From assembly GCA_031459765.1 (NCBI GenBank), contig JAVKHY010000001.1, positions 347,701 through 411,700 of the forward strand: a stretch of 64,000 nt of DNA. The letters are read 5' to 3'. Source of the DNA: Armatimonadota bacterium. GTDB lineage: Bacteria > Sysuimicrobiota > Sysuimicrobiia > Sysuimicrobiales > Kaftiobacteriaceae. Positions 13,328 to 47,831 of the stretch are shown here, piece by piece (the stretch's first letter is position 1; every line of letters starts with the position of its first letter). The position numbers were made by a program, and so were the translations under genes. The notes beneath the pieces were generated by a model that did not search any database, had not been told where the DNA came from, and worked only from the letters and a program-made list of their open reading frames with translations.

Positions 13328-13594
13328 CCGTGCACCCGCCGTCGTCGACCGCCCTCCAGGCGGCTTCGGCGCCGCCGGCTCGGACCAGGTCTCCCCGCGG
13401 CACACGAGAGCCCTGACGTACCGTTGCTTCCTTCCGGACCTGGCGGGGTTGGTCAGATCTCGTTGCGCGGGACCCGGTCGTCGTCGCCGCGTGCGCCGGC
13501 CCGGCCCTGCAGAGCAGCGTCTCGGGCGGGAGTTCAGCCCCGCTGTAGCGGATTGCGGGTACAGGGAACCGCTAGCTCCCCGCCTAGCACGGCC
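13328..13594 (-). ncRNA. ffs/scr: Signal recognition particle RNA, large (Bacillus) type
   Basis: About 267 nt. The domain IV loop is unmistakable: CCAGGTCCGGAAGGAAGCA at about 13443-13425. The 5' part reads GGCCGTGCTAGGCGGGGAG then GGTTCCCTGTACCCGCAATC, the conserved Alu-domain sequence of Bacillus scRNA. The 3' end, GGTGCACGGCC, pairs with the 5' GGCCGTG to close the long helix. Presence of the Alu domain separates it from the short 4.5S type of E. coli. The ends are set by the closing pairing and may be off by a few bases. It lies near dnaX as in Gram-positives. Confidence 0.93.
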
Positions 13595-31479: not shown

Positions 31480-32817
31480 ATGAGGAGGCCTGCGCTCGCC
31501 ATTGCGGCGGTAGTGGTGGTGGTTGTGGCGGTCGTGCTGATCCTCGTCTTCCGTCCGACCCGGCCGACGGCGCCGGCGGAGATCCTCGTCGGCGTCCCGG
31601 CCCCGTTGACCGGTATCTACGCTGGGTTCGGCGAAGGCTTTGTGTTCGGGATGAGAGCCGCTGTGGACGATGTGAACCGGCAGGGCGGGGTACGGGTCCA
31701 GCAGTATGGGGCGCGGATCCCGATGCGGCTCATCGTGGTCAACACGGAGAGCGACCCGGCCAAGGCCGGTGCCCTGGCCGAAGATCTCGTGACCCGCAGC
31801 AAGGTACACTTCCTGGCGGCAGGCGACCAGCCGCCGCCGATGCACCCCGGCGTCGCCACCGTGGCCGATCGGTACGAGATCCCCTACGTCATGTCCACGG
31901 GGCCGCTCGAGCCCTCCACGGCCATGCGCAACGAGGTCGAAGGCCGCTGGAAGTATACCTGGGCCACCGGATTGTTCGCGATCGTGACACCGGCTCCGGC
32001 CGGAGACTTCAGGGCCGGACCCGGATATACCATCGTCGATACCTGGAAGGCGATGCTCGACCTGTACGGCAATCAGACGAACAAGAAGGTGGCCGTTTTC
32101 GCCTCCGACGATCCGGACGGTGTCGGTTGGTTCGCCCTCTTCTCCAAGACGCTGCAGGAGTGGGGATACACCGTGATCGGCACGGAGAGGAAGCTCGGCC
32201 TGACCCCGATGGATACCGCCGACTTCAGCCCGATCATTCGAAGGTGGAAGGATGAGCAGGCGGAGATCCTCTGGGGCAACGCGCCTGCGCCCTTCGTGGG
32301 GACCCTCCTCAGGCAGGCCGCGGCGCTGGGGTTCAAGCCGAAGATGGTCTCGATCGGCCGTGCCCCTCTGTTCTACGAGGACGTCTCGGCCTGGGGCGGG
32401 GATCTGCCCTTGGGCATCGGCGTGGAGATCTGGTGGGATCCCTCCTTCCAGAATTCTCCCGGGATCGGCGGGACGACCCCCCAGTCCCTGGCCGAGCGGT
32501 GGGCCAAGGATACGGGCCGGCAGCTGAACCGCAACATCGGCCCCGGGTACCGCATCATCCAGGTCCTCATCGATGCCATCGAGCGCGCCGGGGTACTGGA
32601 TGGGCCGGCGGTCAACGCCGCCCTGGCCAAGACCGACCTGCTCACCATCGGGCACCGGGTCAAGTTCGATGAGAATCAGTTCAGCCGGGGCCCCCTCGTC
32701 TTCGGGCAATGGGTGAAGACGGACAAACCGTGGGTGTGGGAGTTGCCCGTGGTCTTTTCGAAGCATGACTTCATAAAGGCCACCGCCGCCCCAATCTTCC
32801 CCATCCCCTCCAGGTAG
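31480..32817 (+). CDS. Branched-chain-amino-acid-type ABC transporter substrate-binding protein
   Basis: 445 residues with an N-terminal membrane segment (about 5-24, very Val-rich) serving as signal or anchor. Type I periplasmic fold of the LivK/urea/amide family: LVGVPAPLTGIYAGFGEGF, ADDVNRQGG-like AVDDVNRQGG, and KVAVFASDDPDG. The family binds amino acids, amides, aromatic acids and many other small ligands. First gene of a complete operon divergent from IclR, so the ligand is probably the substrate broken down by the minus-strand enzymes. Confidence 0.9.
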   Translation: MRRPALAIAAVVVVVVAVVLILVFRPTRPTAPAEILVGVPAPLTGIYAGFGEGFVFGMRAAVDDVNRQGGVRVQQYGARIPMRLIVVNTESDPAKAGALAEDLVTRSKVHFLAAGDQPPPMHPGVATVADRYEIPYVMSTGPLEPSTAMRNEVEGRWKYTWATGLFAIVTPAPAGDFRAGPGYTIVDTWKAMLDLYGNQTNKKVAVFASDDPDGVGWFALFSKTLQEWGYTVIGTERKLGLTPMDTADFSPIIRRWKDEQAEILWGNAPAPFVGTLLRQAAALGFKPKMVSIGRAPLFYEDVSAWGGDLPLGIGVEIWWDPSFQNSPGIGGTTPQSLAERWAKDTGRQLNRNIGPGYRIIQVLIDAIERAGVLDGPAVNAALAKTDLLTIGHRVKFDENQFSRGPLVFGQWVKTDKPWVWELPVVFSKHDFIKATAAPIFPIPSR

Positions 32818-32851
32818 GACGGAGGCACCCCGGGGTCTGCTCGGGTCGCGG

Positions 32852-33580
32852 GTGGTGGGTGTGGATCGCCCCCTGCTCTCGCTGGTCCGGGTCACCAAGC
32901 GCTTCGGGGGCCTGGTGGCCGTCCGGGAACTGGACTGCACCGTGCAATCCGGCGAAGTCGTCGGCCTGATCGGTCCCAACGGGGCGGGCAAGACGACCGT
33001 GCTCAACATCATCTCCGGCGAGCAGCGGTGTGACTCCGGAAGGGTGTGGTTTCGAGGGCGGGAGACGACCGGGTACCCGCCCCACCGCATCTGCCGTCTG
33101 GGGATCGCCAGGACCTACCAGATTCCCCAGCCCTTTGCCAGCCTGACGGTTCGGCAGAACGTTTTGGTCGCCGCGACCTTCGGGGCCCGTCTGGCTCCGG
33201 TGGAGGCCGAGCGCGAGACCGCGCGGGTTCTCGATCTCGTTGAGCTCGCGGCCTGGCAGGAGGCGCGGGCGGGAGGGTTGCTGGGCGATGCGTTGAGGCG
33301 ATTGGAACTGGCCAGGAGTCTTGCCGCCAGGCCCAGCCTGATCCTGTTGGACGAGGTGGGGGCCGGTCTGACCGAGCCGGAGATCGCAAAGTTCCTGGCC
33401 ATCCTCAAACGAGTGCGTGATGCGGGCGTGACCATCCTGCTGGTAGAGCACGTCATGAGGGTGATCACGGACGCCGTGGACCGGGTGATTGTGATGGCTC
33501 AGGGCGCCAAGATCGCCGAGGGCACGCCGGCCGAGGTCATGCGCAGCCGCAGCGTGATGGAAGCCTACCTGGGACAGTAG
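32852..33580 (+). CDS. livG: ABC transporter ATPase, LivG type
   Basis: 242 residues. Walker A GPNGAGKTTV, Q-loop region ARTYQIPQPFASLT and Walker B LILLDEVGAGL. The ABC signature is degenerate: where LivG proteins normally have a Gly-rich LSGG-like motif the sequence is LLGDALRRLELARSLA. The switch His lies in LLVEHVM. Energises the permeases encoded just downstream. The GTG at 32852 follows the binding-protein gene by 34 bases. Confidence 0.92.
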   Translation: MVGVDRPLLSLVRVTKRFGGLVAVRELDCTVQSGEVVGLIGPNGAGKTTVLNIISGEQRCDSGRVWFRGRETTGYPPHRICRLGIARTYQIPQPFASLTVRQNVLVAATFGARLAPVEAERETARVLDLVELAAWQEARAGGLLGDALRRLELARSLAARPSLILLDEVGAGLTEPEIAKFLAILKRVRDAGVTILLVEHVMRVITDAVDRVIVMAQGAKIAEGTPAEVMRSRSVMEAYLGQ

Positions 33581-33594
33581 CGGGGAGCCGCCCG

Positions 33595-34326
33595 ATGGCC
33601 GGGGGACAACCTCAAACCACACTGCTCAAAGTCAGCGAGATCGACGTCCTCTACGGCTCCTTCCAGGCGTTGTGGGGCGTATCCCTGGAGGTGAGGGCCG
33701 GGGAGATGGTCGCCCTCGTCGGTGCCAACTCCTCGGGCAAATCGACGCTGCTGAACGCGATCTCGGGGTTTCTGCGCCCGGCCCGGGGCCGCATCGAGTT
33801 CGAGGGCAGGGACATCACCCGGGACGACCCCTGGCGCACGGTCGATCTCGGTATCGCCCATGTCCCGGAGGGACGGCGCCTGTTTCCCGACCTCACCGTG
33901 CTGGACAATCTCATCCTGGGGTCCTACAGCGCCAGGGCCAGAGCGCGGAGGGCGGCCAATCTGGACGCCGTCTTCACCCTCTTCCCCAGGCTGGCCCAGC
34001 GCAGGCACCAGGTTGCCAAGACCCTCAGCGGAGGGGAGCAGCAGATGCTGGCGCTGGGGCGCGGTTTGATGTCCGCTCCGGCGTTGCTGCTCCTGGACGA
34101 GATGTCCCTGGGTCTCGCGCCGGTCGTCGTCGGTGAGCTGTATCGGACGCTGCAGCAGATCAGGGCCGCGGGCGTGGCCATCCTCTTCGTCGAACAGAAC
34201 GTGAAGCAGAGTCTTGGGCAGGCCGACCGGGCGTACATTCTGGAGAAGGGACGCATCGTCCTGAGCGGGGAGGCGGCGGTCCTCCGAGAAACGGAAGAGG
34301 TCAAGCGGGCCTATTTCGGTGTGTGA
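33595..34326 (+). CDS. livF: ABC transporter ATPase, LivF type
   Basis: 243 residues. Walker A VGANSSGKSTLL, HVPEGRRLFPDLTVLDNL, a canonical LSGGEQQMLALGRGLM signature, Walker B LLLLDEMSLGLAP and switch FVEQNV. Partners LivG in the same operon; the canonical signature here contrasts with the degenerate one in the preceding gene. Confidence 0.94.
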   Translation: MAGGQPQTTLLKVSEIDVLYGSFQALWGVSLEVRAGEMVALVGANSSGKSTLLNAISGFLRPARGRIEFEGRDITRDDPWRTVDLGIAHVPEGRRLFPDLTVLDNLILGSYSARARARRAANLDAVFTLFPRLAQRRHQVAKTLSGGEQQMLALGRGLMSAPALLLLDEMSLGLAPVVVGELYRTLQQIRAAGVAILFVEQNVKQSLGQADRAYILEKGRIVLSGEAAVLRETEEVKRAYFGV

Positions 34327-34348
34327 CCGCCCCAACGGGTACTGAGCG

Positions 34349-35218
34349 ATGAGTGCAGCCGTACCCTGGGACCTGGTCGCGCCCATGATCATGGGCGCTC
34401 TTTTGGGCGGACTCTACGCCCTGGTCGCCCTGGGCCTGTCTCTGGTCTTCGGTGTGATGAAGCTCATCAACGTGGCCCACGGCGACTTCGTGGTGTTGGG
34501 CAGCTACGCCGCCTATGCCGGGATGTCCCTGGGCCTGGATCCCATCCTCAGTCTCCTCGTGGGCGTCCCCGCCTTCGGGGTGTTGGGTTTTTTGTTGTAC
34601 CGGTTCCTGATGCACCGCGCCTCCGGGATCTCGGCGGAGGCCCCGCTGATCGTGGCCTTCGGCCTTTCCATCGTCCTGCAGAATGCGATCCAGATCGCCT
34701 GGTCCCCGTTGTCCAGAGGGCTGACGACGTCCTACATCCTGGTCAGCCTCAGGTTCGGGTCTGCCGACATTCCTCTGGTCTACCTGCTCGATCTCGTCGC
34801 CGCGCTCATCGTCATGGCCGCGCTGGACGGATTCCTCCGCCGGACCTACCTGGGGAGGGCGGTCACCGCCGCCTCGCAGGATGCCAGGGCCGCGCAGCTC
34901 GTGGGCATCAACACCGACACCATCCACGCGCTGGCCTTTGCCATCGCCACGGCCACCGCCGCCATCGCCGGTGTCTTCCTCGGGTTGACCTATCCCTTCA
35001 CCCCGTCGTCGGGCGTGGCCTACCTGATCATCGCCTTTGGGGTCGTGATCATCGGCGGCCTGGGCAGTATGCTAGGCACGTTCCTGGGAGGGATCATCCT
35101 GGGGCTGGCCCAGTCGCTGGGGGGCCACTTCTTCGGCGCCGCAGCGCAGATGCTGCCCGTCTACCTCACGGTGCTCGTGTTGCTGGCCCTGAGGCCGCAG
35201 GGACTCTTTGGTCGCTAG
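34349..35218 (+). CDS. livH: ABC transporter permease, LivH type
   Basis: 289 residues, about eight membrane helices. LivH features: GLLGGLYALVALGLSLVFGVM-like start, INVAHGDFVVLGSYAAY, TYLGRAVTAASQDARAAQLVGI (the loop that contacts the ATPase) and AFGVVIIGGLGSMLGTFLGG. Forms the membrane channel with LivM. Confidence 0.93.
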   Translation: MSAAVPWDLVAPMIMGALLGGLYALVALGLSLVFGVMKLINVAHGDFVVLGSYAAYAGMSLGLDPILSLLVGVPAFGVLGFLLYRFLMHRASGISAEAPLIVAFGLSIVLQNAIQIAWSPLSRGLTTSYILVSLRFGSADIPLVYLLDLVAALIVMAALDGFLRRTYLGRAVTAASQDARAAQLVGINTDTIHALAFAIATATAAIAGVFLGLTYPFTPSSGVAYLIIAFGVVIIGGLGSMLGTFLGGIILGLAQSLGGHFFGAAAQMLPVYLTVLVLLALRPQGLFGR

Positions 35219-35225
35219 GGTGAGG

Positions 35226-36215
35226 ATGAAGGCTGGTGTCCGACCCCGCGGGGTCGAAGCGGCAGCGTTCCTGGCAGGGGCGGTCGCCCTGGCCGCGCTG
35301 CCCCTGGCCGGCGTCCCCCGAAGCTGGCTCCTCTACCTGGTGTACTTCTCCCTCTACCTGGCCATGGCCAACATGTGGAACCTGCTGGCCGGCTACTCCG
35401 GTCTCGTCTCACTCTGCCAGCCGGCCTTCATCGGGCTGGCCGGGTACACCCTCGCCGTGGTGACCTGGGTCAATCTGCCGTTCTCTCTGGGGATCGTCGG
35501 CGGGGGCGCAATCGCGGCGCTTTTCGCCCTCGTGATCTCCGTCCCGGTCTTTCGGCTGCGGGGGATGTACTTCGCCATCGGCACGCTGGTCATCCCGGAA
35601 GCGCTGCGGACCGTTTTCTTGCTCTGGAAGCCCGTGGGGGGGGAGCTCCAGGGGCGGGGCGCGGGCTACGTGATCAAGGGCATCGCCGGGGTATCCATGA
35701 CGGAACTCTACTGGCTCGCCCTCGCCGTCGGGGTGGCTTCGGTTTTCCTGATGCGCCGCCTCCTGAGGTCGCGATTCGGATTGGGTCTCTGGGCGATTCG
35801 CGACAACGAGAGGACGGCGGCCAGCGCCGGGGTGCCCGTCTTCCAGCTGAAGCTGTACGCTTTCATCGTGGCCGCCTTCATCACCGGGCTGGCCGGCGCC
35901 ATCTTCTACGTGTACCAGGGGTACGTGGAGCCCACCAGCGCCTTCGGCGTGCGGTGGACGATGATCGTGATCCTGTGCACCGTGATCGGCGGCATGGGTA
36001 CCGAGGGGGGCCCCCTGGCCGGGACGCTCATCGTCCTGTTCTTGAATTTCCTTCTGGCCAGATATGGAGGAGTGAGCCTGCTCATCCAGGGCGCGGTGCT
36101 GGTGGGGATCATGCTTCTGGCGCCGCGGGGAGTGATGGGGGTTGTCGGTCAGCTGCGGGCTGCGCAGCGCCTGTCACCTCCGAATGGTCAGGGTTCCCTT
36201 CCCCGGGAGACCTAG
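35226..36215 (+). CDS. livM: ABC transporter permease, LivM type
   Basis: About 329 residues, eight to nine membrane helices. LivM features: NMWNLLAGYSGLVSLCQPAF, VFRLRGMYFAIGTLVIPEALR, RDNERTAASAGVPVFQLKL and VIGGMGTEGGPLAGTLIVLF. ATG 35226 lies eight bases beyond the livH stop; an in-frame TTG at 35208 would overlap livH. Last gene of the first Liv operon. Its end overlaps the stop of the convergent vWA lipoprotein gene by four bases. Confidence 0.92.
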   Translation: MKAGVRPRGVEAAAFLAGAVALAALPLAGVPRSWLLYLVYFSLYLAMANMWNLLAGYSGLVSLCQPAFIGLAGYTLAVVTWVNLPFSLGIVGGGAIAALFALVISVPVFRLRGMYFAIGTLVIPEALRTVFLLWKPVGGELQGRGAGYVIKGIAGVSMTELYWLALAVGVASVFLMRRLLRSRFGLGLWAIRDNERTAASAGVPVFQLKLYAFIVAAFITGLAGAIFYVYQGYVEPTSAFGVRWTMIVILCTVIGGMGTEGGPLAGTLIVLFLNFLLARYGGVSLLIQGAVLVGIMLLAPRGVMGVVGQLRAAQRLSPPNGQGSLPRET

Positions 36216-39103
36216 CGCGGCATGAGGACGAACCGGTCGCCCCGGAGGGAGATCGCGAACACGGCGGTCTGGTCGGCGACGACCGTGACGTTCGCCGTCA
36301 GTGTATCGTCGGCCGCCTGGACGACGACCTTGTAGCGTCCGGGTGGCAGCTCGTCGCCGAGGTCTCCGGCCTCGCCTTGGGCCACGACACGTCCGGCGGT
36401 GTCGAAGATCTTGTACGGGAACCGGTCGGTGGTGGCCAGCCGCAGCGCCCGGGCCAGCGCGGCGCCGCTCGGCGCGCTGTAGTAGCGCCCTCCGGTGGCC
36501 CCGGCGAACGTCGCGAGCTGACGCTCGGCCTGCTGCCCTTTCAACGTGAAGCCCACAATGTTCAAGGTGACGTCGAGGCCGGCGGCTTTCATCTGGGCCG
36601 CCGCCTTTGCCGGGTCGCCCCGGCAGGACTCCTCTCCGTCGGTGATCAGGACAATGAATCCGCCGCCGAGCGGCCTGAGGTCGGCCGCCGCCTGGAGCGC
36701 CGAGTAAACTAGCGGCGTTTCTCCTCGCGGGCGGAGGGAGGTCAGGGCGGAGAGGAACCGGGTCCGATCCAGCCTGCTGATGGGCACCATGAGTTCGCTG
36801 TCCCGGCAGGTCTGCGGGGACGTGGAGGGCAGTCGGTGTCCGTAGACGCGCAGGCCGACGTTGAAGTCGTCCGGCAGTCTGGCCACGACGCTCCTGAGGA
36901 CGGTGAGCGCGGTTTGCCAGCGGGTGCTGGTTCCCAGCCGCGCGTTCATCGAACCGGAGACGTCCAGGACGATTTCAAGGTTACGCCGGACCGGTCCGAC
37001 GCGGCGGAGCGCACTGGTTACCTGGATCCGCCCCGTCAGTGCGGCGGTGATCTGCTCCGGCCCCCCGGCGAGACAGATGGCGGCCCACATGGTGTGGGCG
37101 AAGTCGGATTCGCCGGCGGTATTCATGCGCGGCCAGGCGCCGATCGGTTTCTGGTGGGCGAGCAGGAAGCGTACTGCCTTCTGGAGCGGCGGGCTCCCTA
37201 TGTCTCCCCCGGCATCGCGCAGCGCGCAGAGGGCCTGGCCTGTGGCGAAGGCGTTTGAGCCACTCTGTGTGCCGGCCTCTTTCCACCCACCGTCCGCAGC
37301 CTGCTCGGTCACCAGTTCCTGCGCGAGAGCGGCGGCGGCGCGCCGCTGCTCCGGATTGCCCAGGCGGGACAGCGCCATGATCTTGAATGCTTTGTCCTGG
37401 GTGGTCTGGGTGGCGGCGTCGGCGATCCACGCCACCGCGCAGTCGGCGGCCCGCCTGAACTGCGGATCACCGGTCTCCGCGGCCGCGCGGGCGAATGCCG
37501 CCGCGCTGTTTGCCGTGGTCAATATCGACCCCTGGTTGATCGGCGGCCGCACATTGTCTATCGTGATCTCGCCGGCCGGCTGCTGCCGTGGGAGCAGCCA
37601 GCGCAGGGCTTTGAGCAAGGTGGCGTCCTCGCGGACGCTGGCGAATTGATCGACGGCGGTCAGCCCGACGGCGGCGAACTGCGTGGCGGTCACCTGGCCG
37701 TCGTTGTGGTAGCTCCCGTCGGGATTCTGGCGCTCGCGTGTGAGCTGGATCAGCTGCTGGTAGGCGTCCTCGTTGATGATGTAGTCGTTGGCCCGGGCCT
37801 CCGCGAGGCCCATGATCACCTGCCCCTGGACGTGGCAGCCGAAACACTTGTGCGTCCGCTGCCAGCTCACCGATTGAGACTGCAGCCATTCCAGGCCGGC
37901 CTGCGCCGCCTGCCTGCTCGTACGCCTCCAGTGGCGCTGCGCCGCGGCGTGGCTGAGGTAGCGCGGGTCGATCGGTACGTGGTCACGATCCCCGGGCCCT
38001 TTCCACAGTAGAGAGAGTCTGCCCCTCGGGACCTCCTCCACGGTGCCCAGTCGTATGGTGTGCGGGGAGGAATCGAGCGTGAGAGTTCTCTCGTCTGCCG
38101 GCGCCTGCATGGGATGCGGCAGAATCAACCGACCGTCGATGTACAGGAACGAGACGCCGTCGCCCAGGAACAGAAACTCGTAGCGGCCGGACGTGGGCGG
38201 GGTCAGCAATCCCTCCCACTCTATCCAGAACTTGTTTTCGATGAGGGGCGTCACCGGCGGCGTGTTCCACTCGAGCGCGAACGTTTGGGCAAGGCCGGTC
38301 TTCCTCATGCTGTTGTACGTGTGGTCGGCGAAGAGGCGAATCACCAGGCCGGGGTGGACGGCGCCGATCGCGGTGACGACAAACTCGGCGCCCCGCGTGG
38401 CGCCTGAGCGCGCGGTGATCTCGACACGGTAGCGCCCGGCCTTCCACCCACCCGCCGGGCGGACCAGCGACGCCGCTCCCTCGGTGTCCCGGTCCACAGC
38501 GGCCGACGAGGTGGACATCACCGTCCCCGGCGCAACCCCCTCGACCTTTAGCGCAATCCACTTCACCTGCACCTCGCTGCGGGCGCTCACCTCTGCGACC
38601 TTCCACACCGCGTAGACGGCGGGCGCCGTCGCCGGCACCGCATAGACGGGACGCACTCCCGCCGCATCGAGCGCGACGACGGCCCGTGCGATGCGCATCC
38701 CCCGGGGCGGTGCGGGCTGCGCCAGCGGAGAACCGGACGGCGGCGTGAGACACGCCCGGGATGCGGCGGAGGAAGCCGGGCCGGCGGGCGCAGCCGCTGC
38801 AGGTGCCGACGGCAAGGACCGCGTGGCGGATGACTGCGCGCCGGCGGCCGCAGGCGGAGCGGGCGACTGCCCTTGCGCTCCCGCCTCCTCACCGGCTGGA
38901 GGGGGTGCGACGGCCGAGGGTTCCCCGGGAGCATCCGGAGGCCGCGGAGCGGCGGCCGGGGCGGGGCGAGCTGGACTCTCGCCGGAGGGAGGCCGGGCAG
39001 GTGACTGGCATCCGGCGGCGGCGATGGCCAGCGCCAGGCTCAGGACCAGCCCGGCCCGCAGCGCGCCCGCGCTAGAGCGGGATCCCCGCTGACTTCCGGT
39101 CAC
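36212..39103 (-). CDS. Lipoprotein with PA14-like, haem-c motif, alpha-toroid repeat and vWA domains
   Basis: 963 residues. Signal peptide ending AIAAAGC (lipid Cys32), then a long Pro/Ala-rich linker. A beta domain near residue 200-260 precedes a PA14-like domain (IEWEGLLTPPTSGRYEFLFL, GVSFLYIDGRLIL). A CFGCH haem-c motif follows (residues 420-424). About 250 residues of helical repeats (LEWLQSQ, QNPDGSYHND, LLPRQQ, DGGWKEAG, LLAHQKPIGAWP) resemble the alpha/alpha toroid of squalene-cyclase-like proteins. Then a vWA domain with the MIDAS DVSGS (Asp714, Ser716, Ser718) and ITDGEESC, and a short PEGA-like end. GTG 39103 is chosen; it avoids overlap with the upstream gene. I know no named family with this order. 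Outer-surface, possibly haem- and Mg-dependent adhesion or sensing. Confidence 0.85.
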   Translation of the reverse strand: MTGSQRGSRSSAGALRAGLVLSLALAIAAAGCQSPARPPSGESPARPAPAAAPRPPDAPGEPSAVAPPPAGEEAGAQGQSPAPPAAAGAQSSATRSLPSAPAAAAPAGPASSAASRACLTPPSGSPLAQPAPPRGMRIARAVVALDAAGVRPVYAVPATAPAVYAVWKVAEVSARSEVQVKWIALKVEGVAPGTVMSTSSAAVDRDTEGAASLVRPAGGWKAGRYRVEITARSGATRGAEFVVTAIGAVHPGLVIRLFADHTYNSMRKTGLAQTFALEWNTPPVTPLIENKFWIEWEGLLTPPTSGRYEFLFLGDGVSFLYIDGRLILPHPMQAPADERTLTLDSSPHTIRLGTVEEVPRGRLSLLWKGPGDRDHVPIDPRYLSHAAAQRHWRRTSRQAAQAGLEWLQSQSVSWQRTHKCFGCHVQGQVIMGLAEARANDYIINEDAYQQLIQLTRERQNPDGSYHNDGQVTATQFAAVGLTAVDQFASVREDATLLKALRWLLPRQQPAGEITIDNVRPPINQGSILTTANSAAAFARAAAETGDPQFRRAADCAVAWIADAATQTTQDKAFKIMALSRLGNPEQRRAAAALAQELVTEQAADGGWKEAGTQSGSNAFATGQALCALRDAGGDIGSPPLQKAVRFLLAHQKPIGAWPRMNTAGESDFAHTMWAAICLAGGPEQITAALTGRIQVTSALRRVGPVRRNLEIVLDVSGSMNARLGTSTRWQTALTVLRSVVARLPDDFNVGLRVYGHRLPSTSPQTCRDSELMVPISRLDRTRFLSALTSLRPRGETPLVYSALQAAADLRPLGGGFIVLITDGEESCRGDPAKAAAQMKAAGLDVTLNIVGFTLKGQQAERQLATFAGATGGRYYSAPSGAALARALRLATTDRFPYKIFDTAGRVVAQGEAGDLGDELPPGRYKVVVQAADDTLTANVTVVADQTAVFAISLRGDRFVLMPR

Positions 39104-39125
39104 CGCGGGCCCCGGCGGCGGATGA

Positions 39126-39470
39126 TCACGCCGCGTATCGCTTCGCGTACATGCTGACGAACGGGATGGTGAACGTCCTGCCGTTGTACGCCTGGACCGC
39201 ATAGTAGATCGACAGGATCAGCCAGGCCAGCCAGAAGATGGGCGCCGTGAACAGGAAGATGAGCCATCCCAGAAACGGGATGCGCACGAAGATCTGCAGC
39301 GCCACCCAGACGATAAACCAGGCGATCCCCCAGAACAGCGCGGTCCACCCGTGGAGCCGCATGAAGGGATCTTTCTTCATGTCGGTGACGACGATGATGA
39401 GAGCGATGATCCAGATCGGATACCCCAGCGCGGCCAGCAGGCGATTCTCGTTGCCTTTGGTCTCTTCCAT
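39126..39470 (-). CDS. DUF4870-like small membrane protein
   Basis: 114 residues with three to four hydrophobic helices (GYPIWIIALIIVVTD, ALFWGIAWFIVWVALQIFV, LIFLFTAPIFWLAWLILSIYY). The pattern of an N-terminal ENRLLAALGYPIW, then KKDPFMRLHGWTALFWG matches the Tic20/DUF4870-like group. No reaction is known. It sits between two lipoprotein genes in the same direction. Confidence 0.75.
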   Translation of the reverse strand: MEETKGNENRLLAALGYPIWIIALIIVVTDMKKDPFMRLHGWTALFWGIAWFIVWVALQIFVRIPFLGWLIFLFTAPIFWLAWLILSIYYAVQAYNGRTFTIPFVSMYAKRYAA

Positions 39471-39566
39471 GGACGAACCCCCCTCGCTGTGTGATCGATG
39501 CCGGCGCCCCTCCGGGGGAGCCTTGGAGGCAGCCTTCCAGACCGGTGCCCTGACCTCCTGGGGATT

Positions 39567-41999
39567 TCACGGCCCCCAGGGCAGCGTCGGCATCTCCGGG
39601 ATCGTATCCGAGAATCCTGGGAGCGTCGGCAGCTCAGGATGGGTGGGAGCGTAAGGGAGCGACGGTTCCCGCCATGTGAGGCGGGGATCGAAGCGGGGAG
39701 GGCCGCCTCCGGCCGGCGGTCCATAGATCGGGCCTCGTGGGGGCGCTGGGGCCGGTGCTCCGCCCGGGGGCCCTGGCGGAGAGCCTGCTCCGCCCGCGCC
39801 GCCTCCGGGTTGCGCGGACGACCCCCAACAGGCGATCGTCATCATTCCCAGTCCGACCGCGGCCGCCGTCGCTCCGCCCATCGCCATCTCGAGATCTCCG
39901 CCTCCTCCGCCGTCCGAGAACGCGCGATCGATCCCGACCTTGGCCACATACAGCCCCGCGGCGAGGATTGCCGCGCCGGCGACCACACATCCCAGTTCCT
40001 TGACCCGCTCGGCGTTGACGACCGCGATGGACCGGGTGGACGTGCCGTACTCGGGCGCGGCCTGATGGCCGCCGTCTTCGGTGGCATCCTCGGTCCACCC
40101 CGTCCGCTGGTCGACGCTCCACCAGCCGAGCAACGACGTCCAGTCCTTCGGCCGGCCGTCCGGGATGACGGCCACCTGTCCCCGGCCGAGTACATCGGAC
40201 ACGCGGAGCCGTCCGTCGTCCGTGAAGAGCCCGCTCGGGATTTCTGCCGCGGTCTTGACCAGCCGCGCGGGCACCTTCTGCATGGCGGCCGTCTCGAAGA
40301 GCGCCCCGACGCTCCCGGAGGCCTGTGCCGTTCCGAGGAGCCATCGCTCGGCGGTGTGGTCCAGGACGCCGCTGGCGAGGTGGTCGTAGAACGGCCCGCG
40401 TCGTGTGAACGAGTCGTCCGGAGGCCTCAGCAGGCGGTAGCTCTTGAGCGTCAGGTCCATCGACAGAGAGGCGGCCGCCGGAGAGGCGCGGGGTTGCGCG
40501 CGTGCGACGACGATGGAGGGCGAGTCGATGTACCATAGCGGCCGCGGGGTGAGGAAGGACGAGGGGAGGGCTCCGCGGACCGCGTGGTAGGTTGAAGCGA
40601 TCAGCGCAAGAAGACGGACGACGCCGGTTTCGCTCTGTGGATCGCCGACCTCGGCGGCCATCGCCGAGAGCAGAGCCGGCGGCGTGGAGCCGGTGGCGAT
40701 GCCGATGCCCAGGAACGCATCGAGGGAGGCGAGGATCACTTGGAGGCCCTCGGCGGAGAGGTCCTTCGGAGCGTTGCCGGACTGCCGCGCGGCCGGGCCG
40801 TCGACGTCGAACACGGTATAGGCCGCTGCCCGTTCTCCCGACGGTGTGATGATGCGGAACTTGAGCCACTCTGCGTTGAGCCGATCGCCGCCTCCGCCGA
40901 ACGGATTCAGCACGGGCGCCCGGGCCGGGCCCACGCCGATGAACACGGGCGACGGGAAAGATTCGCCGGTGAGGCGCGTCTCGCCAACCATTAGCACCGG
41001 GATCGACGCGTCGGGCTTGCGCTCGTGGAACATACCGATGGGCACTGCGGCCAGGTCCGCGGCGCGGACGGCGTGTCGAAGTACCGTCCTCACCTCTCGC
41101 CTGCCGTCCTGGAGCATCTCGACCTCCACGCTGATCTCGACGACGGGGAAAACAGCCGTGTCGAGCTCGTCTCTCACGAACTCGGCCGGGACGAGGCTGT
41201 GGCCGTAGGCAACTCCAGGGGAGGTGTCGAGGTCCAGCCAGCGGCCATCGCGCTCCACCTGCACCCAGACGTGCCGCCTGGCCTCCTCTACCGTCCTCGC
41301 CCAGGCGCCGGCATCACCCTCGGGTGGTCCGAACCGCGCCTGGGACAGGGCGTTCCCCAGGAGAAGGAAGTGCTGCAGGGCGCGCCGCGTGATGGTCATC
41401 AGGCCGGAGCCGCTCTTGAACGACGGCTCACGGGCCGGGAATGCGGCACGTACGAGCTGTTCCGCCTGGGCCGGCGAGAGTGCTCCCTGAGCGAAGCGGA
41501 CTCTGTGCCCGGCCGTCCGCAGCATCGCGGCCAGCAGCAGGGCACGATCGAGGGAGTTGCCGGCGCGGGCCAGCAGGGTTCCGCGCGGCCCGCGCACCGC
41601 GCCGGCGTATGGCTCATAGCGGATCTCCGCCTGCACGAAGCCGGCCAGCACCGCCGGGTCCGTGCCGATCTTCGCCTGAGCAGCGCGGACATCCAGCCGC
41701 GAGTAGTCCAGCGAATCCCGCAGCCGGGCCCGCGTGTCCTCGTAGTCCTTTCTGGCTTTCCCAAGGTCTTGAGGCGACGCGTCCGGGGATGCCGCCGGAG
41801 TCGAGTTTGCAGGAGGAGCGGCGGGAACCCCGGGCGAGCCGACAGGGTTCGCCGGACCCCCCGGAAGCGCCGGGGGTTGTCCCGCGGGCGCGGGAGTCTG
41901 CGCAGCGGGACCGGCCGGCCGTGGGGTGCTCTGGGGACTGCATCCCTGCGCGATGAGCGCGAGGACGATCAGGAGAGACGCGACCGGCCCGGCCCTCAC
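39567..41999 (-). CDS. Transglutaminase-like lipoprotein
   Basis: 810 residues. The GTG at 41999 overlaps the TGA of the upstream gene and opens a lipoprotein signal (LLIVLALIAQGC, lipid Cys20) followed by a Pro-rich linker. Residues about 120-250 resemble a transglutaminase-like fold: GNSLDRALLLAAMLRTAGHR, then HVWVQVERDGRWLDLDTSPG, with the His and Asp of the triad. The position of the nucleophilic Cys is Ser (GNS), so catalysis is doubtful. The middle has no recognised domain. The C terminus has two Gly/Ala helices and a Pro/Gly-rich tail. Probably a cell-surface structural or binding protein. Confidence 0.8.
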   Translation of the reverse strand: MRAGPVASLLIVLALIAQGCSPQSTPRPAGPAAQTPAPAGQPPALPGGPANPVGSPGVPAAPPANSTPAASPDASPQDLGKARKDYEDTRARLRDSLDYSRLDVRAAQAKIGTDPAVLAGFVQAEIRYEPYAGAVRGPRGTLLARAGNSLDRALLLAAMLRTAGHRVRFAQGALSPAQAEQLVRAAFPAREPSFKSGSGLMTITRRALQHFLLLGNALSQARFGPPEGDAGAWARTVEEARRHVWVQVERDGRWLDLDTSPGVAYGHSLVPAEFVRDELDTAVFPVVEISVEVEMLQDGRREVRTVLRHAVRAADLAAVPIGMFHERKPDASIPVLMVGETRLTGESFPSPVFIGVGPARAPVLNPFGGGGDRLNAEWLKFRIITPSGERAAAYTVFDVDGPAARQSGNAPKDLSAEGLQVILASLDAFLGIGIATGSTPPALLSAMAAEVGDPQSETGVVRLLALIASTYHAVRGALPSSFLTPRPLWYIDSPSIVVARAQPRASPAAASLSMDLTLKSYRLLRPPDDSFTRRGPFYDHLASGVLDHTAERWLLGTAQASGSVGALFETAAMQKVPARLVKTAAEIPSGLFTDDGRLRVSDVLGRGQVAVIPDGRPKDWTSLLGWWSVDQRTGWTEDATEDGGHQAAPEYGTSTRSIAVVNAERVKELGCVVAGAAILAAGLYVAKVGIDRAFSDGGGGGDLEMAMGGATAAAVGLGMMTIACWGSSAQPGGGAGGAGSPPGPPGGAPAPAPPRGPIYGPPAGGGPPRFDPRLTWREPSLPYAPTHPELPTLPGFSDTIPEMPTLPWGP

Positions 42000-42823
42000 C
42001 GCGGGCCCGCCTTCCGCCGGTCCGCGATCGCCTTGGTCAGCTTGAGCGCAATCGCGCCCCCGGGGACGACCAGGTTCAGCGTCTCCCCGCCGATGTCGAA
42101 GAGGACGTCGCGGTTGAGCACCTTCCGCAGCTTCTCGCCGAAGAGGCTGCCCGCGGCGCGGAACTCGCCCGTCAGCGCGTCCACCTCCGCCACGGCGCGC
42201 TTGCCCTTGCTCTCCCACCTGTACTCGAAGGCGTAGACCGGCCGGTAGTAGAGATTGAGGGCGGGGACGGCGACGGTCTCCTCGAGGACCTTGTCCGCGG
42301 ACGGTGGGTGGAGCACGTCGCCCAGGACGCGGCGGATCACATCGGCGGCGCGCACTTCCGGCGGAACGAGGGCGACATCGTGCCCGATCCCGTCTCCCAC
42401 CGCCTGCGGATCGAACTGCAGGTAACCGCTCAGATCCTTTGCGTCGCTGCTCAACCCGTCCAGGAAGAGCTCGTTCCGCTCCTCGATTAGGCAGTCTTCC
42501 TGCCCGGGCAGCACAATCGTTCCGCCGGACGGCGCGTACGCCTGCCCGGCGATCTCGACGGACTGCACCTCTTTGGCGATCGACACGCGATACTGCGCGC
42601 GGCGCGCGAATCGAAACCGCTTGTGACCGACGGCGTGCCAGAACGGATGGTATCGGAACTCGGAGAGGCCGATCTGGATCTCTTCGCCCTTCGGGCGGAT
42701 GAGCAACTTGGAGAGCGTGCCGAAGACGTTGAACTTCTGCTCCAGCACCCGTTCCCGCGCCTGCTCCGGGGTGAGGCGGGTCGGCAGGAGAAAGATGCCC
42801 TGGTCCGCGATCGTGACCTCCAT
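41996..42823 (-). CDS. Conserved-looking cytoplasmic protein, function unknown
   Basis: 275 residues with no signal peptide. Starts MEVTIADQGIFLLPTRLTPE, contains YRVSIAKEVQSVEIAGQAYA and RPVYAFEYRWESKGKRAVAEVD, then a hydrophobic end (LNLVVPGGAIALKLTKAI). No family recognised. Rich in beta strands by eye, with one Cys. The longer frame upstream (to 43135) lacks protein-like character and would overlap the next gene. Co-directional and overlapping (GTGA) with the transglutaminase-like lipoprotein gene, so a cytoplasmic partner of that protein is plausible. Confidence 0.72.
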   Translation of the reverse strand: MEVTIADQGIFLLPTRLTPEQARERVLEQKFNVFGTLSKLLIRPKGEEIQIGLSEFRYHPFWHAVGHKRFRFARRAQYRVSIAKEVQSVEIAGQAYAPSGGTIVLPGQEDCLIEERNELFLDGLSSDAKDLSGYLQFDPQAVGDGIGHDVALVPPEVRAADVIRRVLGDVLHPPSADKVLEETVAVPALNLYYRPVYAFEYRWESKGKRAVAEVDALTGEFRAAGSLFGEKLRKVLNRDVLFDIGGETLNLVVPGGAIALKLTKAIADRRKAGPR

Positions 42824-42837
42824 CTCCGGGCCTCTGT

Positions 42838-43392
42838 CTACGGCGCGCGCCGCGCCGCCTGGTCGAGCAGAGCCTTCACACGCTGAGGAGCCACCGGCGC
42901 GTTCGACTGGATGGTGACCTCCATGGACAGCGCAAGCCCCCTGCCGATGATGAGGCACCAGGTCTGCTGCACGGTCCCCAGCAGCGGATGCTTCCCGTTT
43001 CGGAAGAGCCGGCATTCCGCCCCGGGGAGCCTGACGGTTTCGATCGCCGCGCCATCCTGTCGGGCCAACGCTTCCTTCGGCGGATACCAGAAGGCGGCGA
43101 GCTGCGGGAGCGGGGCCGCCGCGCGGGTGGCCCACAGCACGACGCCCACATCAGCCTGACCCGCGCGCAGGACCCAGGCGCAGTGGTCCAACACCTCGCC
43201 CTGGAGCGGCGTGCCCTGAGTATCCGTGTCCTCGCCTTCCTGCGCTCCTCGGCTCACTTTCGCGCCGAGCGCGGCCTCGAGATCGGCCGAGGTCAGCAGC
43301 GAGCAGGGTTTGTATTTTGTCGCCGCCGTGCTGGGGACGGGCGCCACCAGGGCCACTGCGGCGATCAGCACCATTGCCACGGCAATCCGCAT
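42838..43392 (-). CDS. Secreted protein, paralogue A of a three-gene tandem family
   Basis: 184 residues. Signal peptide (MRIAVAMVLIAAVALVAPVP, cleavage near STAA), then YKPCSLLTSADLEAALGAKV. This C-xLLT-x-ADLEAALG opening resembles DUF3558-type exported proteins. Four Cys remain after the signal (CSLL, HCAW, ECRL, TWCL), so two disulfides are likely. The two upstream genes have the same design. Function unknown. Confidence 0.75.
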   Translation of the reverse strand: MRIAVAMVLIAAVALVAPVPSTAATKYKPCSLLTSADLEAALGAKVSRGAQEGEDTDTQGTPLQGEVLDHCAWVLRAGQADVGVVLWATRAAAPLPQLAAFWYPPKEALARQDGAAIETVRLPGAECRLFRNGKHPLLGTVQQTWCLIIGRGLALSMEVTIQSNAPVAPQRVKALLDQAARRAP

Positions 43393-43447
43393 CTTCGTTT
43401 CCCCCCTGACATCAGCGCTCTCCGTAGCCTCGATCTGGCCGGCCGTG

Positions 43448-43963
43448 CTAGTTGGGGAGCCTGGCGTAGACGATCGCAGCCAGCTTGAGCGATGCGTCAA
43501 TGTTCGACTTGCCTCCCGTCACGGCGCGGAGGTGCACCCACCAGCGGCCCTTTCCGAACTTCACGGTGATCAGTTCCTTCTTGCCGGGGCCGATGCCGAC
43601 GGGGCCGATCACGTAGTACCCGTTGCTGCCCAAGGACGGCAGGGGCGTGACCTTCCGGTTCTTGTCGAAGAACTCCCGCTGCTGCCGCACGGCGGCGTTT
43701 CCATCCTCCACCGGCCCGAACACCAGGACCTCGGCGTAGTTCTCGGGTCCCTTCATGTAGGCACAGGCCTGCGTGGTGAGCGCGGCGACCTCTTGCTGGG
43801 CCTTCCGGTACCCTGCTCCCAGCGCGCCGGTCACGTCCTGCGCGGTCAACAACCTGCAGGGATCCGGGCGCGCGGGCTGGGCGGTTCCGACTGCGGCCCG
43901 CCAGGCCAGAGCGAGCAGCAGGGTCACACCCACCAACCCCGTGGCGCGGACCACCTTCCTCAT
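43448..43963 (-). CDS. Secreted protein, paralogue B of a three-gene tandem family
   Basis: 171 residues. Signal peptide MRKVVRATGLVGVTLLLALA, then RPDPCRLLTAQDVTGALGAGY, equivalent to the start of its neighbours, and QACAYMKGPE. Two Cys in the mature part. The body ends with ELITVKFGKGRWWVHLRAV and a helix. MRKVV at 43963 is chosen since it opens the signal peptide. Function unknown. Confidence 0.73.
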   Translation of the reverse strand: MRKVVRATGLVGVTLLLALAWRAAVGTAQPARPDPCRLLTAQDVTGALGAGYRKAQQEVAALTTQACAYMKGPENYAEVLVFGPVEDGNAAVRQQREFFDKNRKVTPLPSLGSNGYYVIGPVGIGPGKKELITVKFGKGRWWVHLRAVTGGKSNIDASLKLAAIVYARLPN

Positions 43964-44007
43964 GCTCTCGCCTCGCGTCATGGCAGGGGTGATCATCCTT
44001 CAGGGGA

Positions 44008-44556
44008 TCACGGCAGTCTCGCCGCCACTTTGCCGGCCAGCGCGGCCACCTGCCGGGCGGTCACAGCGGCCGGCCCCACCACCGTCACCGAGAAGGCCAG
44101 GCCCTTGCTCTCCATGAAGCAGCCGGTGCTCGGGCGCGCGGTGGTTTCGCTTGCCGGCGGGACCATGCGCGTGCAGGAGGCGCCCCCGGTCTGCGTGGAT
44201 TCGACCGTCCAGCCCTGCTGCTTCAGCCTGTCGGCCGCTCCGCGCAGCTGAGCCAGACCGTAGTCCCGCTCCTGGGGCGTCCGGGGTGCCCGGATGATGG
44301 CAACGCTGGCCACTCCCCCGGCAAAGACCCAGGTGCAGCTGGACTGGGTCTCGCCGGTATACGGCCCGTTGTTGATGACGACGTCTTGCTCGATCGTGCG
44401 GTCGACCTTCGCATGGACTTCTGCCTCCACTTCCCCGGCCGTCAGCTTCGCGCAGGCATTGTACTTGGTGCCGGCCGCGGCCGGCAGAGGCGGAGCCAGA
44501 GCGCTCAGGATCAGCGCCAGGACAACCAGATCGGCGGATTTCCCCACGGCGATCAC
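44008..44556 (-). CDS. Secreted protein, paralogue C of a three-gene tandem family
   Basis: 182 residues, GTG start. Signal peptide (LVVLALILSALAPPLPAAA), then YNACAKLTAGEVEAEVHAKV, SSCTWVFAGGVASVAIIRAP, GASCTRMV and TGCFMESKG: four Cys spaced like paralogue A. Similar length and layout argue for tandem duplication followed by divergence. Function unknown. Confidence 0.74.
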   Translation of the reverse strand: MIAVGKSADLVVLALILSALAPPLPAAAGTKYNACAKLTAGEVEAEVHAKVDRTIEQDVVINNGPYTGETQSSCTWVFAGGVASVAIIRAPRTPQERDYGLAQLRGAADRLKQQGWTVESTQTGGASCTRMVPPASETTARPSTGCFMESKGLAFSVTVVGPAAVTARQVAALAGKVAARLP

Positions 44557-44565
44557 CCTCCCGAC

Positions 44566-44763
44566 TCAGGTCGTGTCCATTTCCGTTCCGGGGGCCCTTT
44601 CCATGACCAGCCGCCGCAACTCCCCGTCCCGGAACGAGGCGATCTCGGCGGGGGACAGGGCGTAGCCGGCGACGGCGCCGGCGGGGTCCTCCACCAGACG
44701 GGTCCGGAACTCCGCATCCTCTACGGCGCGGGCCAGGACCTCGGCGACGGCTTCCAGACTCAC
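44566..44763 (-). CDS. Small NHLP-leader-like protein (Os1348/Franean1_4349-like)
   Basis: 65 codons from GTG 44763: SLEAVAEVLARAVEDAEFRT, then LVEDPAGAVAGYALSPAEIA and a short acidic tail. The pattern of an amphipathic helix, EFRxRLxEDPAGAxxGYxLSPxEIAxF resembles the nitrile-hydratase-like leader part of small putative peptide precursors such as the Os1348 and Franean1_4349 families. The tail after the leader is only about 15 residues without an evident core peptide, and no modification enzyme is nearby, so it may be a stand-alone protein of that fold. Divergent from the SARP-like regulator. Confidence 0.55.
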   Translation of the reverse strand: MSLEAVAEVLARAVEDAEFRTRLVEDPAGAVAGYALSPAEIASFRDGELRRLVMERAPGTEMDTT

Positions 44764-44897
44764 CGCCTCAGGATGCCAGACCGTTCTGCACAAAACCTTT
44801 ACCAGACGAGCCTCCCGACCGGCCCGACACGGCGGCGGCAGGCTCCAACCGCGCGCCGCGGCGGGAAAAGGTGTATGATGTCGGATCAAAGACCCTG

Positions 44898-47831
44898 ATG
44901 GACGAGAGCTCGCCGCTGCTGCCGCTCATCGGCCGCGAGGCCGAAACCGCGGGCATTCGGGACCTGCTGACCCGCCGCACCACCCGTCTGGTCACCGTGG
45001 TCGGTCCTCCGGGAGTCGGGAAGACCCGGCTGGCGCAGGCCGCATCCGACGGGCTGGAAGGAACCTTTGCGGAGGGACGCGCCTTCGTCGATCTTGCTCC
45101 CGTCGCCGACGCCGCGGGCGTGCTGTCCGCCATTGCCCAGACGCTGCGCCTTCGCGAGGGCGCCGGTTCGACCCCCCTGGACACGCTTCGGGAGCATCTC
45201 GCCGAGCGGCGGCTGCTGCTGGTTCTCGACAACTTCGAACACGTCCTGGCCGCGCGTGGGGAAGTGGCCGGACTCCTCGCCGCCTGCCCCGGACTCAGGG
45301 TGCTCGTCACCAGCCGCGTCCCGTTGAATGTCCGCTGGGAGCAGCGCTATCCCGTGGCGCCGCTCGCCTGTCCGGACCCGCGCCGCGTCTACGACCCGCA
45401 GGACCTGGCGAGCTATCCGGCCGTGGCCCTGTTCGTGGAGCGGGCACGGACGCTGGACCCCGCTTTTGCGCTCGATGCCCGCAACGCGAGGGCGGTGGCC
45501 GCGATCTGCGCCCAGCTCGATGGCCTCCCCCTGGCCATCGAACTGGCGGCGGCGCGCGTGAACGTCCTCTCGCCGCAGGCGATTCTGGAGCGGCTGGGCG
45601 GGGTGCTCGACCTCCTGACCGAGGCGCCGGGGGACGTGCCCGGCCGCCATCGCACGCTCCGCGCCGCCGTGGAGTGGAGCTACCGGCTGCTCAGCCCCGG
45701 AGATCAGCGGCATTTCCGTCAGCTGTCCGTCTTTGCCGGCGGCTTCACGCTTGAGGCGGCCGAGGCCCTCACCGGCGCCGCGCTCGATGCCCTGGTTCCC
45801 CTGGCCAACCACAACCTGCTCTCGCGCGACCAGAACCCCGGTGCCGATGGGCGGTTCCGCATCCTGGAGACGGTGCGGGCGTTCGCCGCGGAGGTCCTGG
45901 CGGCAAGCGGCGAGGAGGAGGATGCGCGGCGCCGCCATGCGGTGTTCTTCTGCGACCTCGCGGAGCGGGCCGAACCGGAGCTCACCGGATCGCGTCAGGC
46001 GGAGTGGCTGTCGCGGCTGGACGCCGATGCGGACAATCTTCTGGCGGCGATGCGGTGGGCCGCCGGGCGGGATCCGTCACGGCTCCTGCGACTCGCCGGA
46101 TCTCTGGCCCGATACTGGCTGCTGCGCGGCCGGCTGTCCGAAGGTCGCCGGTGGTTGGAGGCCGCCGTCGCCGCATCCGAGGGACGCTCCGAGGCGGACC
46201 TGGCGAAAGCCCTCGGCGGCGCGGCGACGCTCATGGTGGAAACGGGGGAATTCGCTCGGGCGGCGGAGGCGGCCGTGCGCAGCCTCGAGATCTGCCGGCG
46301 CCTGGGCGATGAGCGAGGCCAGACCCGGGCGCTGAGCGCCCTGGGAAATGCCCGGCTGCGCCAGGCCCGCTACGATGAGGCCCGGGCGATTCATGAGGAG
46401 GGCCTGGCACTCTTTCAAAAGATGGGGGACCCGCGGGGGACGGCCCAGGCGCTGAACAATCTGGGGGCGATCGCCCGGCTGCAGGGCGACCTGGACAGCG
46501 CCCGGCGGTTCTACGAGGAGAGCCTGCGGCTCAAGCGGGAAGAAGGAAGTCCCTCCCGCGTGGCGCTGGCGTTGAACAACCTCGGCGAGGTGGAACTGGA
46601 CGCCGCGAATGTCGAACGCGCCGAGCTGACCTTGCGCGAGAGCCTGGAGATCTTCGAGAGTGCCGGGGCCCGTGCGTTCGTGGTCGGCGTGCTGGCCAAC
46701 CTCGGACGCGCCTCGCGCCTGGCCGACGATCTGGACACCGCCGAGGAGCGCTACCGACGCAGCCTCGTCCTTTCCGAGGAGACGCAGCAGCGCGCCTACG
46801 TCAGCGAGTGCCTGGAAGGACTGGCCGCCGTCGCCGTGGAGCGGGGGCATCTCGCCGGAGCGGCCTGGCTGCTGGGCGCGGCGACCGCCCTCCGGGACGC
46901 GGCGCAATCCCCGGTGCCCCCGGTGGCCCGGGAGGAGTATGACCGGCTCCTGCAACGGATCCGCTCCGGGGCCGAGTTCGCCGCCGCGTACAGTCGGGGC
47001 TACGCGACCCCCGCCGAGGAGATCATCGCGAAGACGCTGTCCGGAGCCGCCGACGCCGGCGCGCCTGCTTCCAATACGCGGGTGGAGATCAACCTGCTCG
47101 GCCCGTTCCGGTTCCGCGTGGGCGGCGAAGATGTCTCCGACGGCACGTGGGGACGGCCGCGCGCACTGGCCATCCTCCAGTACCTGCTGCTCCGCCGCCC
47201 CCGCCCGGTGCCGGCGGAAGAGCTGGCCGAGGTCTTCTGGCCCGAGGCGCCCTCGGTGGAGCGCACCACCCTCTACGCCACGCTCACGCGTCTGCGAAAC
47301 GGACTGGAGGCCTCCGGCCTCGGCGCGTCCGCGTTGCGGCGGGAGCGAGGAGGCTACCGGATCGACCTGCCGGCGGGCGCCGTCGTGGACTTCGACGCCT
47401 TCAACGCCGCCCTCCGGCCGGGCCCGAGGGAGATGATGGCGGCGGATGCGCTGTCACGCTATGAAGGCGCCCTTCTTCGATACAGCGGAGAGCTGCTCGA
47501 GGATGCGCCGTACGCCGGGTGGGCGGCGCTGGAGCGCGACGCGGTGCGCGCCCGCTGGGTCGAGGCCTGCCTGGCCGTGGCCAGCAGCCACAAACGCGCG
47601 GGACGGGTGGAGCGGGCTCTGGAGTGGTATCAGCGTGCGCTGAGCCGCGATGCCACGCTGGAGGATGCCCACCGCGGGGCGATGCGCTGCTACGCCGGCC
47701 TGGGCCACCGCGATCTGGCGCTGCGCCAGTACGACCGCTGCGTCCGGATCCTGCGGGACGAACTGGACGCGCCGCCCGACGCGGAAACCGTGGCGCTGCG
47801 CGACGCGATCGCCCGGCCCGCAGCGCCGTGA
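44898..47831 (+). CDS. STAND ATPase - TPR regulator with C-terminal SARP-like (wHTH-BTAD) module
   Basis: 977 residues. Residues 15-330 are a P-loop ATPase like AfsR/NB-ARC regulators (Walker A VVGPPGVGKTRL, Walker B LLLVLDNFEH, VTSRVPL, GLPLAIELAAARV, LLSPGDQRHFRQLSVFAGGF). Residues 400-690 are TPR repeats (ALNNLGAIARLQGDLDSAR). The last 260 residues start with an OmpR-type winged helix (INLLGPFRFRVGGED, LAILQYLLLRRPRPVPAEEL, TLYATLTRLRNGLE) and continue as a bacterial transcriptional activation domain. AfsR-type proteins carry this SARP part at the N terminus; here it is C-terminal. Divergent from the secreted-protein genes, so probably their activator. Confidence 0.85.
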   Translation: MDESSPLLPLIGREAETAGIRDLLTRRTTRLVTVVGPPGVGKTRLAQAASDGLEGTFAEGRAFVDLAPVADAAGVLSAIAQTLRLREGAGSTPLDTLREHLAERRLLLVLDNFEHVLAARGEVAGLLAACPGLRVLVTSRVPLNVRWEQRYPVAPLACPDPRRVYDPQDLASYPAVALFVERARTLDPAFALDARNARAVAAICAQLDGLPLAIELAAARVNVLSPQAILERLGGVLDLLTEAPGDVPGRHRTLRAAVEWSYRLLSPGDQRHFRQLSVFAGGFTLEAAEALTGAALDALVPLANHNLLSRDQNPGADGRFRILETVRAFAAEVLAASGEEEDARRRHAVFFCDLAERAEPELTGSRQAEWLSRLDADADNLLAAMRWAAGRDPSRLLRLAGSLARYWLLRGRLSEGRRWLEAAVAASEGRSEADLAKALGGAATLMVETGEFARAAEAAVRSLEICRRLGDERGQTRALSALGNARLRQARYDEARAIHEEGLALFQKMGDPRGTAQALNNLGAIARLQGDLDSARRFYEESLRLKREEGSPSRVALALNNLGEVELDAANVERAELTLRESLEIFESAGARAFVVGVLANLGRASRLADDLDTAEERYRRSLVLSEETQQRAYVSECLEGLAAVAVERGHLAGAAWLLGAATALRDAAQSPVPPVAREEYDRLLQRIRSGAEFAAAYSRGYATPAEEIIAKTLSGAADAGAPASNTRVEINLLGPFRFRVGGEDVSDGTWGRPRALAILQYLLLRRPRPVPAEELAEVFWPEAPSVERTTLYATLTRLRNGLEASGLGASALRRERGGYRIDLPAGAVVDFDAFNAALRPGPREMMAADALSRYEGALLRYSGELLEDAPYAGWAALERDAVRARWVEACLAVASSHKRAGRVERALEWYQRALSRDATLEDAHRGAMRCYAGLGHRDLALRQYDRCVRILRDELDAPPDAETVALRDAIARPAAP

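Follow-up and report, generated by a model that had tools for sequence, protein, structure and literature searches.

The genes encoding an exported transglutaminase-fold protein without its catalytic Cys (TG) and a vWA protein with an intact MIDAS form a pair which is the new and solid part of these findings. Both genes are adjacent wherever both were found, even in distant bacteria, and therefore their products probably work together at the cell surface. In the window (the whole stretch of 64,000 nucleotides that was analysed), the pair is contained in an array of eight co-directional genes opposed to a gene encoding a STAND-TPR-SARP regulator. With a probability of about one half, the array is a single operon for a surface-assembled complex of the vWA protein and the pseudo-transglutaminase, which would be adhesive or sensory and activated by the SARP.

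Gene content and organization of the array

The window, with a GC content of about 69%, lies in a contig of 561 kb from a genome of 2.8 Mb that is 99% complete. The comparison set for the phylum contains 43 genomes, all of one order, which would fit Sysuimicrobiota (CSP1-3), a phylum with a single class and a single order (PMC11604079). The eight genes on the minus strand and the regulator gene on the plus strand, which had been proposed from the sequence-only reading, all show open frames and coding-type GC3. In operon direction, the order is the Os1348-like gene, sec1, sec2, sec3, cyto, TG, DUF4870 and the vWA lipoprotein gene. The Os1348-like gene is separated by 18 bp from sec1, which is followed after 44 bp by sec2, after another 55 bp by sec3 and, after 14 bp, by cyto. 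The cyto and TG genes overlap by 4 bp, and 96 bp separate TG from DUF4870 and 22 bp DUF4870 from the vWA lipoprotein gene. These gaps of 14-96 bp, with a single overlap, support the likely single operon suggested earlier, and the mostly membrane or secreted nature of the products agrees with the secreted or surface composition that had been put forward. The end of the vWA lipoprotein gene overlaps by 4 bp with the convergent permease gene of a liv-type ABC transporter operon (31480-36215, plus strand), and the array is thus naturally bounded on this side; on the other flank, beyond the regulator, there is a SCO1 gene (47852-48361, minus strand). An empty site is not definable against members of the same family, whose flanks are too divergent. 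Elsewhere, the window contains a bacterial large SRP RNA (13328-13592, minus strand) and, at 53152-54341 near a tRNA-Arg (54383), two overlapping ORFs resembling a split transposase-type gene, the second of which shows no Pfam match.

The TG and vWA proteins

The TG gene (39567..41999, minus strand) encodes an exported protein whose match to PF01841 reaches 26.8 bits (cut-off 23). The catalytic Cys is replaced by Ser in the window protein, which retains the His and Asp, and it is Ser or Ala in all seven aligned homologues; two Burkholderiaceae copies also lack the His and Asp. Since the catalytic Cys is missing, TG probably acts as a binding pseudoenzyme. Inactive transglutaminase domains that immediately follow a signal peptide or a TM helix have been proposed as peptide-binding anchors of surface proteins (PMC3482391). 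A PDB profile search with TG gave no meaningful match.

The vWA lipoprotein gene (36212..39103, minus strand) encodes a protein with a lipobox, a PA14 domain, a CxxCH motif, a squalene-cyclase-like alpha/alpha toroid and one vWA. Two large lipoproteins had been announced at this locus: a lipobox is found in the vWA protein (AAGC), but that of TG is weak (AQGC). All eight proteins, that of the window included, have an intact MIDAS (DxSxS..T..D) in the C-terminal vWA, the alignment to the partner proteins covering this C-terminal part. The vWA proteins of the phylum relatives contain two F5/8C-type domains and two vWAs, and the window protein, with PA14, a CxxCH toroid and one vWA, looks from its domain composition as if the ligand-binding head had been swapped. 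The CxxCH, a putative c-type heme motif, is encoded at 37832-37846 (residues 420-424), behind PA14 and at the start of the toroid, and is missing in the seven vWA relatives compared. In bacterial adhesins, binding is mediated through vWA domains (PMC9430717).

Distribution of the TG-vWA pair

The pair was defined as a Cys-less TG-like exported protein encoded on the same strand as, and at most about 1.2 kb from, a vWA protein whose MIDAS is intact and which has the conserved C-terminal vWA, a definition that includes the window. Among the 43 phylum genomes searched, full-length vWA relatives are present at five loci of three genomes; TG relatives share these five loci, and the remaining genomes contain neither. 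If both distributions were independent, the three genomes would agree by chance with a probability of about 1/12341. These loci are the window, G000:C2, G017:C6, G029:C25 and G029:C41. Outside the phylum, the pair is found at L033 and L118, which belong to Burkholderiaceae MAGs, and at L087, on an Indioceanicola plasmid (Indioceanicola profundi, record strain SCSIO 08040). At 8/8 loci with a full-length vWA partner, TG and vWA genes are 8-1150 bp apart. The pair is bare, without the other families, in G017:C6, G029:C41 and the proteobacteria, and the window TG clusters in the tree with the two bare-pair copies of the phylum (support 100/100). A further TG at L032 starts at a contig edge, where the neighbour on that side is not visible, and has no vWA downstream. 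A scan of genome contigs with narrow patterns returned only the two Burkholderiaceae MAGs and an unrelated transglutaminase that retains its Cys (L034), and scans of viral contigs returned no relatives. At L033:1914-3152 and L118:9235-10482, the pair is preceded by a gene whose product, of about 412 aa, has no Pfam match and is perhaps a third partner there. No description of the TG-vWA pair was found in the literature searched, which covers part of the published work.

The remaining genes of the array

The first gene (44566..44763, minus strand) encodes a small protein of the Os1348 family, NHLP clan (NF038399, 46.3 bits, cut-off 40). The small leader-like gene noted earlier is present, most likely with 65 aa from the GTG at 44763, since the ORF of 107 aa just adds an upstream extension. 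The family profile matches PDB 6lk7 (85 aa, E=4.7e-7), which is Os1348 of Pseudomonas sp. Os17, a small antibiotic-related protein of the same NCBIfam family (PMC7726476). However, Os1348 neighbours acetyltransferase and peptidase-like genes, while the window gene heads a set of surface-protein genes. At L082:4240-5527 and L083:1121-2486, Os1348-like genes adjoin genes encoding an ECF-type sigma factor and a zf-HC2 anti-sigma-like protein, with no recognised RiPP enzyme in the vicinity; this hints that the small protein is a regulator there and not a precursor.

The next three genes encode secreted proteins. Sec1 (44008..44547, minus strand) has a signal-type N-terminus and four Cys (32/71/125/143), sec2 (43448..43963, minus strand) has two Cys and sec3 (42838..43392, minus strand) has four. 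They had been read as three Cys-paired paralogues, which is clear for sec1 and sec3 (34% identity, four Cys each), whereas sec2 is a distant relative (20%, two Cys). Matches to DUF3558 (PF12079) are below the cut-off (best 14.4 versus 34.1 bits; sec2 E=0.09, sec3 E=0.04). The trio was found elsewhere only in G015 (L096), in the same order, with 49, 36 and 44% identity for sec1, sec2 and sec3, respectively, and with equal Cys counts, and this conservation of order and Cys number indicates that it is a real unit of its own. In G015 there is no Os1348-like or SARP gene just upstream of the trio, and the contig breaks off on the downstream side.

The cyto gene (41996..42823, minus strand) encodes a cytoplasmic protein of 275 aa from an unnamed family with six aligned members, four of which show a weak match to PepSY, as a stretch of the window protein does. 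The window copy groups with stand-alone copies (support 100/100), and the gene occurs alone in G038, G032 and G034. A PDB profile search with cyto gave no meaningful match, and AlphaFold2 gave models too poor for use, with a pLDDT of 35 for cyto (from one sequence) and of 37 for TG (from three). The small membrane protein (39126..39470, minus strand) belongs to DUF4870 (PF09685, E=5.9e-10) and is 73% identical to a stand-alone copy of G034 and 46-48% to the cluster copies in G029 and G017; about 20 other genomes contain a single copy without the remaining families of the array. A DUF4870 lineage specific to the clusters was considered and rejected, as the scoring model had been derived from the cluster copies and direct comparison gave the opposite result.

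The regulator and the divergent region

The regulator gene (44871..47831, plus strand; a later start is possible at 44898) encodes a protein of 986 aa. The STAND-TPR-SARP class assigned earlier holds, with a STAND/NB-ARC ATPase followed by TPR and by a C-terminal SARP part made of an OmpR-type winged helix and then the BTAD output domain, with PF00486 and PF03704 both over the cut-off. AfsR-type large SARPs (NF053617) likewise combine STAND NTPase, TPR, winged helix and BTAD within one protein. The window regulator differs from AfsR in its C-terminal BTAD, in an equivalog score of 73.8 bits against a cut-off of 1430, and in adjoining genes that are not biosynthetic. SARPs are mainly known from secondary metabolism.

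Full-length relatives of the regulator adjoin the related loci L026 (44%) and L015 (41%), and the full architecture recurs near relatives of the array in G029:C25 and G017:C24, convergent there and divergent in the window. This recurrence supports the idea of a dedicated regulator, and the array is probably under the control of the adjacent SARP. Adjacency alone is weak evidence, because the STAND-TPR half belongs to a family heavily expanded across the 43 genomes of the phylum (G015 alone shows 18 matches with E<1e-60). In G001, a short contig contains a full-length homologue (36-37%) but no gene of the array.

The binding sites of SARPs are direct repeats ahead of the regulated genes. In the region of 107 bp between the regulator and Os1348-like genes (44764..44870), the only repeats found are a 10-nt inverted repeat (44808-44817/44836-44845) and an 11-nt direct repeat, both imperfect and short, the direct one overlapping the start of the small gene. 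The promoter scan showed no sigma-70-like site in these 107 bp, and promoter and terminator scans of the locus gave nothing above chance level.

The larger gene set in relatives

The eight families were not found together at any other locus, and cyto, DUF4870, the sec trio and the TG-vWA pair each occur separately elsewhere. The full set thus does not keep together in relatives, an outcome which the sequence-only reading had named as counting against it, and the eight families as one system are borne out only in part. Co-occurrence does hold for the pair and, in one other genome, for a set of six: G029:C25 (L015) contains the Os1348-like, DUF4870, vWA, TG, cyto and STAND-SARP genes, together with genes encoding RDD, PrsW, DUF350, a coiled-coil protein and further exported proteins. 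At this locus, the TG gene is split across two frames (L015:6961-8956), by a frameshift or an assembly error. The genome of the window itself contains a second, paralogous cluster (L012, G000:C2:154000-172000) with PrsW, DUF350, DUF3592, coil, Os1348-like, vWA and TG genes and a MalT-like regulator with a C-terminal BTAD. In G017, pieces are distributed over two contig ends, C24 with SARP, PrsW, cyto, DUF350 and RDD, and C12 with a lipoprotein, DUF4870 and an Os1348-like gene. Beyond the pair, variable envelope and regulatory genes thus gather around TG-vWA at two loci at least, and the other genes of the array look like interchangeable add-ons.

The cyto, DUF4870 and TG lineages of the window differ from those of the G029 cluster, and the window array is thus a re-assembled composite; because its cyto and DUF4870 lineages stand alone elsewhere, part of the array may be chance juxtaposition. 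The locus was either acquired or retained singly, since no TG, Os1348-like or full-length vWA match was found in the nine other genomes searched from the same family, several of which are only 77-87% complete.

Comparison with known systems

No catalogued system matches the array, as the sequence-only reading had stated. The inactive transglutaminases of polymorphic toxins (Zhang et al. 2012, PMC3482391) have also lost catalytic residues and follow an export signal or membrane anchor directly. The window TG, in contrast, shows no Pfam match to RHS repeats or to a C-terminal toxin domain, has a long conserved C-terminal region and is encoded by a gene paired with that of a vWA protein. In the BTLCP (LapG)-vWA adhesin pairs, such as ArtA (PMC9430717), the gene of a transglutaminase-like protein likewise adjoins that of a large surface protein with vWA. 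The BTLCP is an active Cys protease, by which RTX adhesins are released (PMC9430717), whereas TG lacks the Cys of the Cys-His-Asp triad and matches PF01841 only, and its vWA partners show no match to RTX repeats, with PA14 and toroid in the window and F5/8C in relatives instead. The MoxR-vWA ternary conflict systems (PMC7159879) share with the locus a vWA-containing protein and a STAND-type NTPase nearby; here the vWA protein is exported, and neither a MoxR AAA+ ATPase nor a VMAP/iSTAND partner is present at the locus or in the flanking genes scanned.

Discussion

In the operon proposed, a single transcript would start at the divergent region, its synthesis being activated by the neighbouring STAND-TPR-SARP protein. 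The conserved pair would be the core, with the lipidated vWA protein as ligand-binding arm, because its MIDAS metal site is intact, and TG as an exported scaffold that binds peptides or proteins and not as an enzyme, because the catalytic Cys is lost. The pair would most likely attach the cell to a surface or to a neighbour, or sense one, and the replacement of the F5/8C-type modules and first vWA of relatives by PA14 and the CxxCH toroid suggests that the ligand has probably changed. DUF4870, in the membrane, cyto and the Os1348-like protein may be accessory or regulatory parts on the inner side, and the three Cys-paired secreted proteins may be a separate exported cassette recruited into the operon.

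It is unlikely, if still worth weighing, that TG-vWA is the functional unit and that the remaining genes are unrelated envelope genes sharing direction and spacing by chance. The lack of a second locus with all eight, the separate occurrence of their parts and the tree positions of cyto, DUF4870 and TG, unlike those of the G029 cluster, would fit such an assembly, but eight genes with such short gaps and an overlap do not, and the same six families gather twice through different cyto, DUF4870 and TG copies, which is hard to obtain by chance and supports a functional linkage, albeit from two loci only. A role as envelope-stress sensor, in which the lipoproteins and membrane proteins would survey the state of the envelope and relay signals to the inside via the Os1348-like protein, cyto and the STAND-SARP, with adhesion as a secondary function, is rather improbable. 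It would account for PrsW, RDD, DUF350 and the coiled-coil protein in related loci and for the sigma/anti-sigma neighbours of Os1348-like genes elsewhere; the window copy, however, is devoid of PrsW, DUF350 and RDD, its locus has neither an anti-sigma factor nor a sensor kinase, and PrsW is known in toxin-export contexts too (PMC3482391).

The Os1348-like protein might also be a precursor or bacteriocin-like product of a RiPP or antibiotic cluster, with the other proteins exporting or tethering it under the SARP. The family match to the antibiotic-related Os1348 points in this direction, as does the common activation of antibiotic clusters by SARPs (PMC7040171). This is very improbable, since a scan of the eight genes and of ten flanking ones detected no RiPP modification enzyme, and the small protein contains neither Cys nor a double-glycine site or core cassette and its C-terminus varies freely among family members in the alignment. 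An inter-cell conflict system akin to polymorphic toxins, which include inactive transglutaminases and PrsW (PMC3482391), or to the MoxR-vWA systems, with their vWA and STAND NTPases (PMC7159879), is hardly credible at a locus where a toxin domain, an immunity gene, RHS repeats, MoxR and VMAP are all absent. A defence-system reading was rejected, as generic TPR is the sole match in the defence library.

A wider interpretation, starting from the SARP-activated surface complex, is tentative and somewhat doubtful: the dead transglutaminase would be the dedicated partner of MIDAS-vWA proteins in a two-part surface apparatus, widespread and undescribed, which would have spread across phyla and repeatedly formed SARP-controlled operons together with genes of the Os1348-like, DUF4870, cyto and STAND-SARP types. 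If true, several families without a known role would receive a concrete class of function, the transglutaminase fold would acquire a non-enzymatic job as structural partner of integrin-like vWA domains, and an operon for surface proteins would come under a SARP, a type of regulator mostly known for the control of antibiotics.
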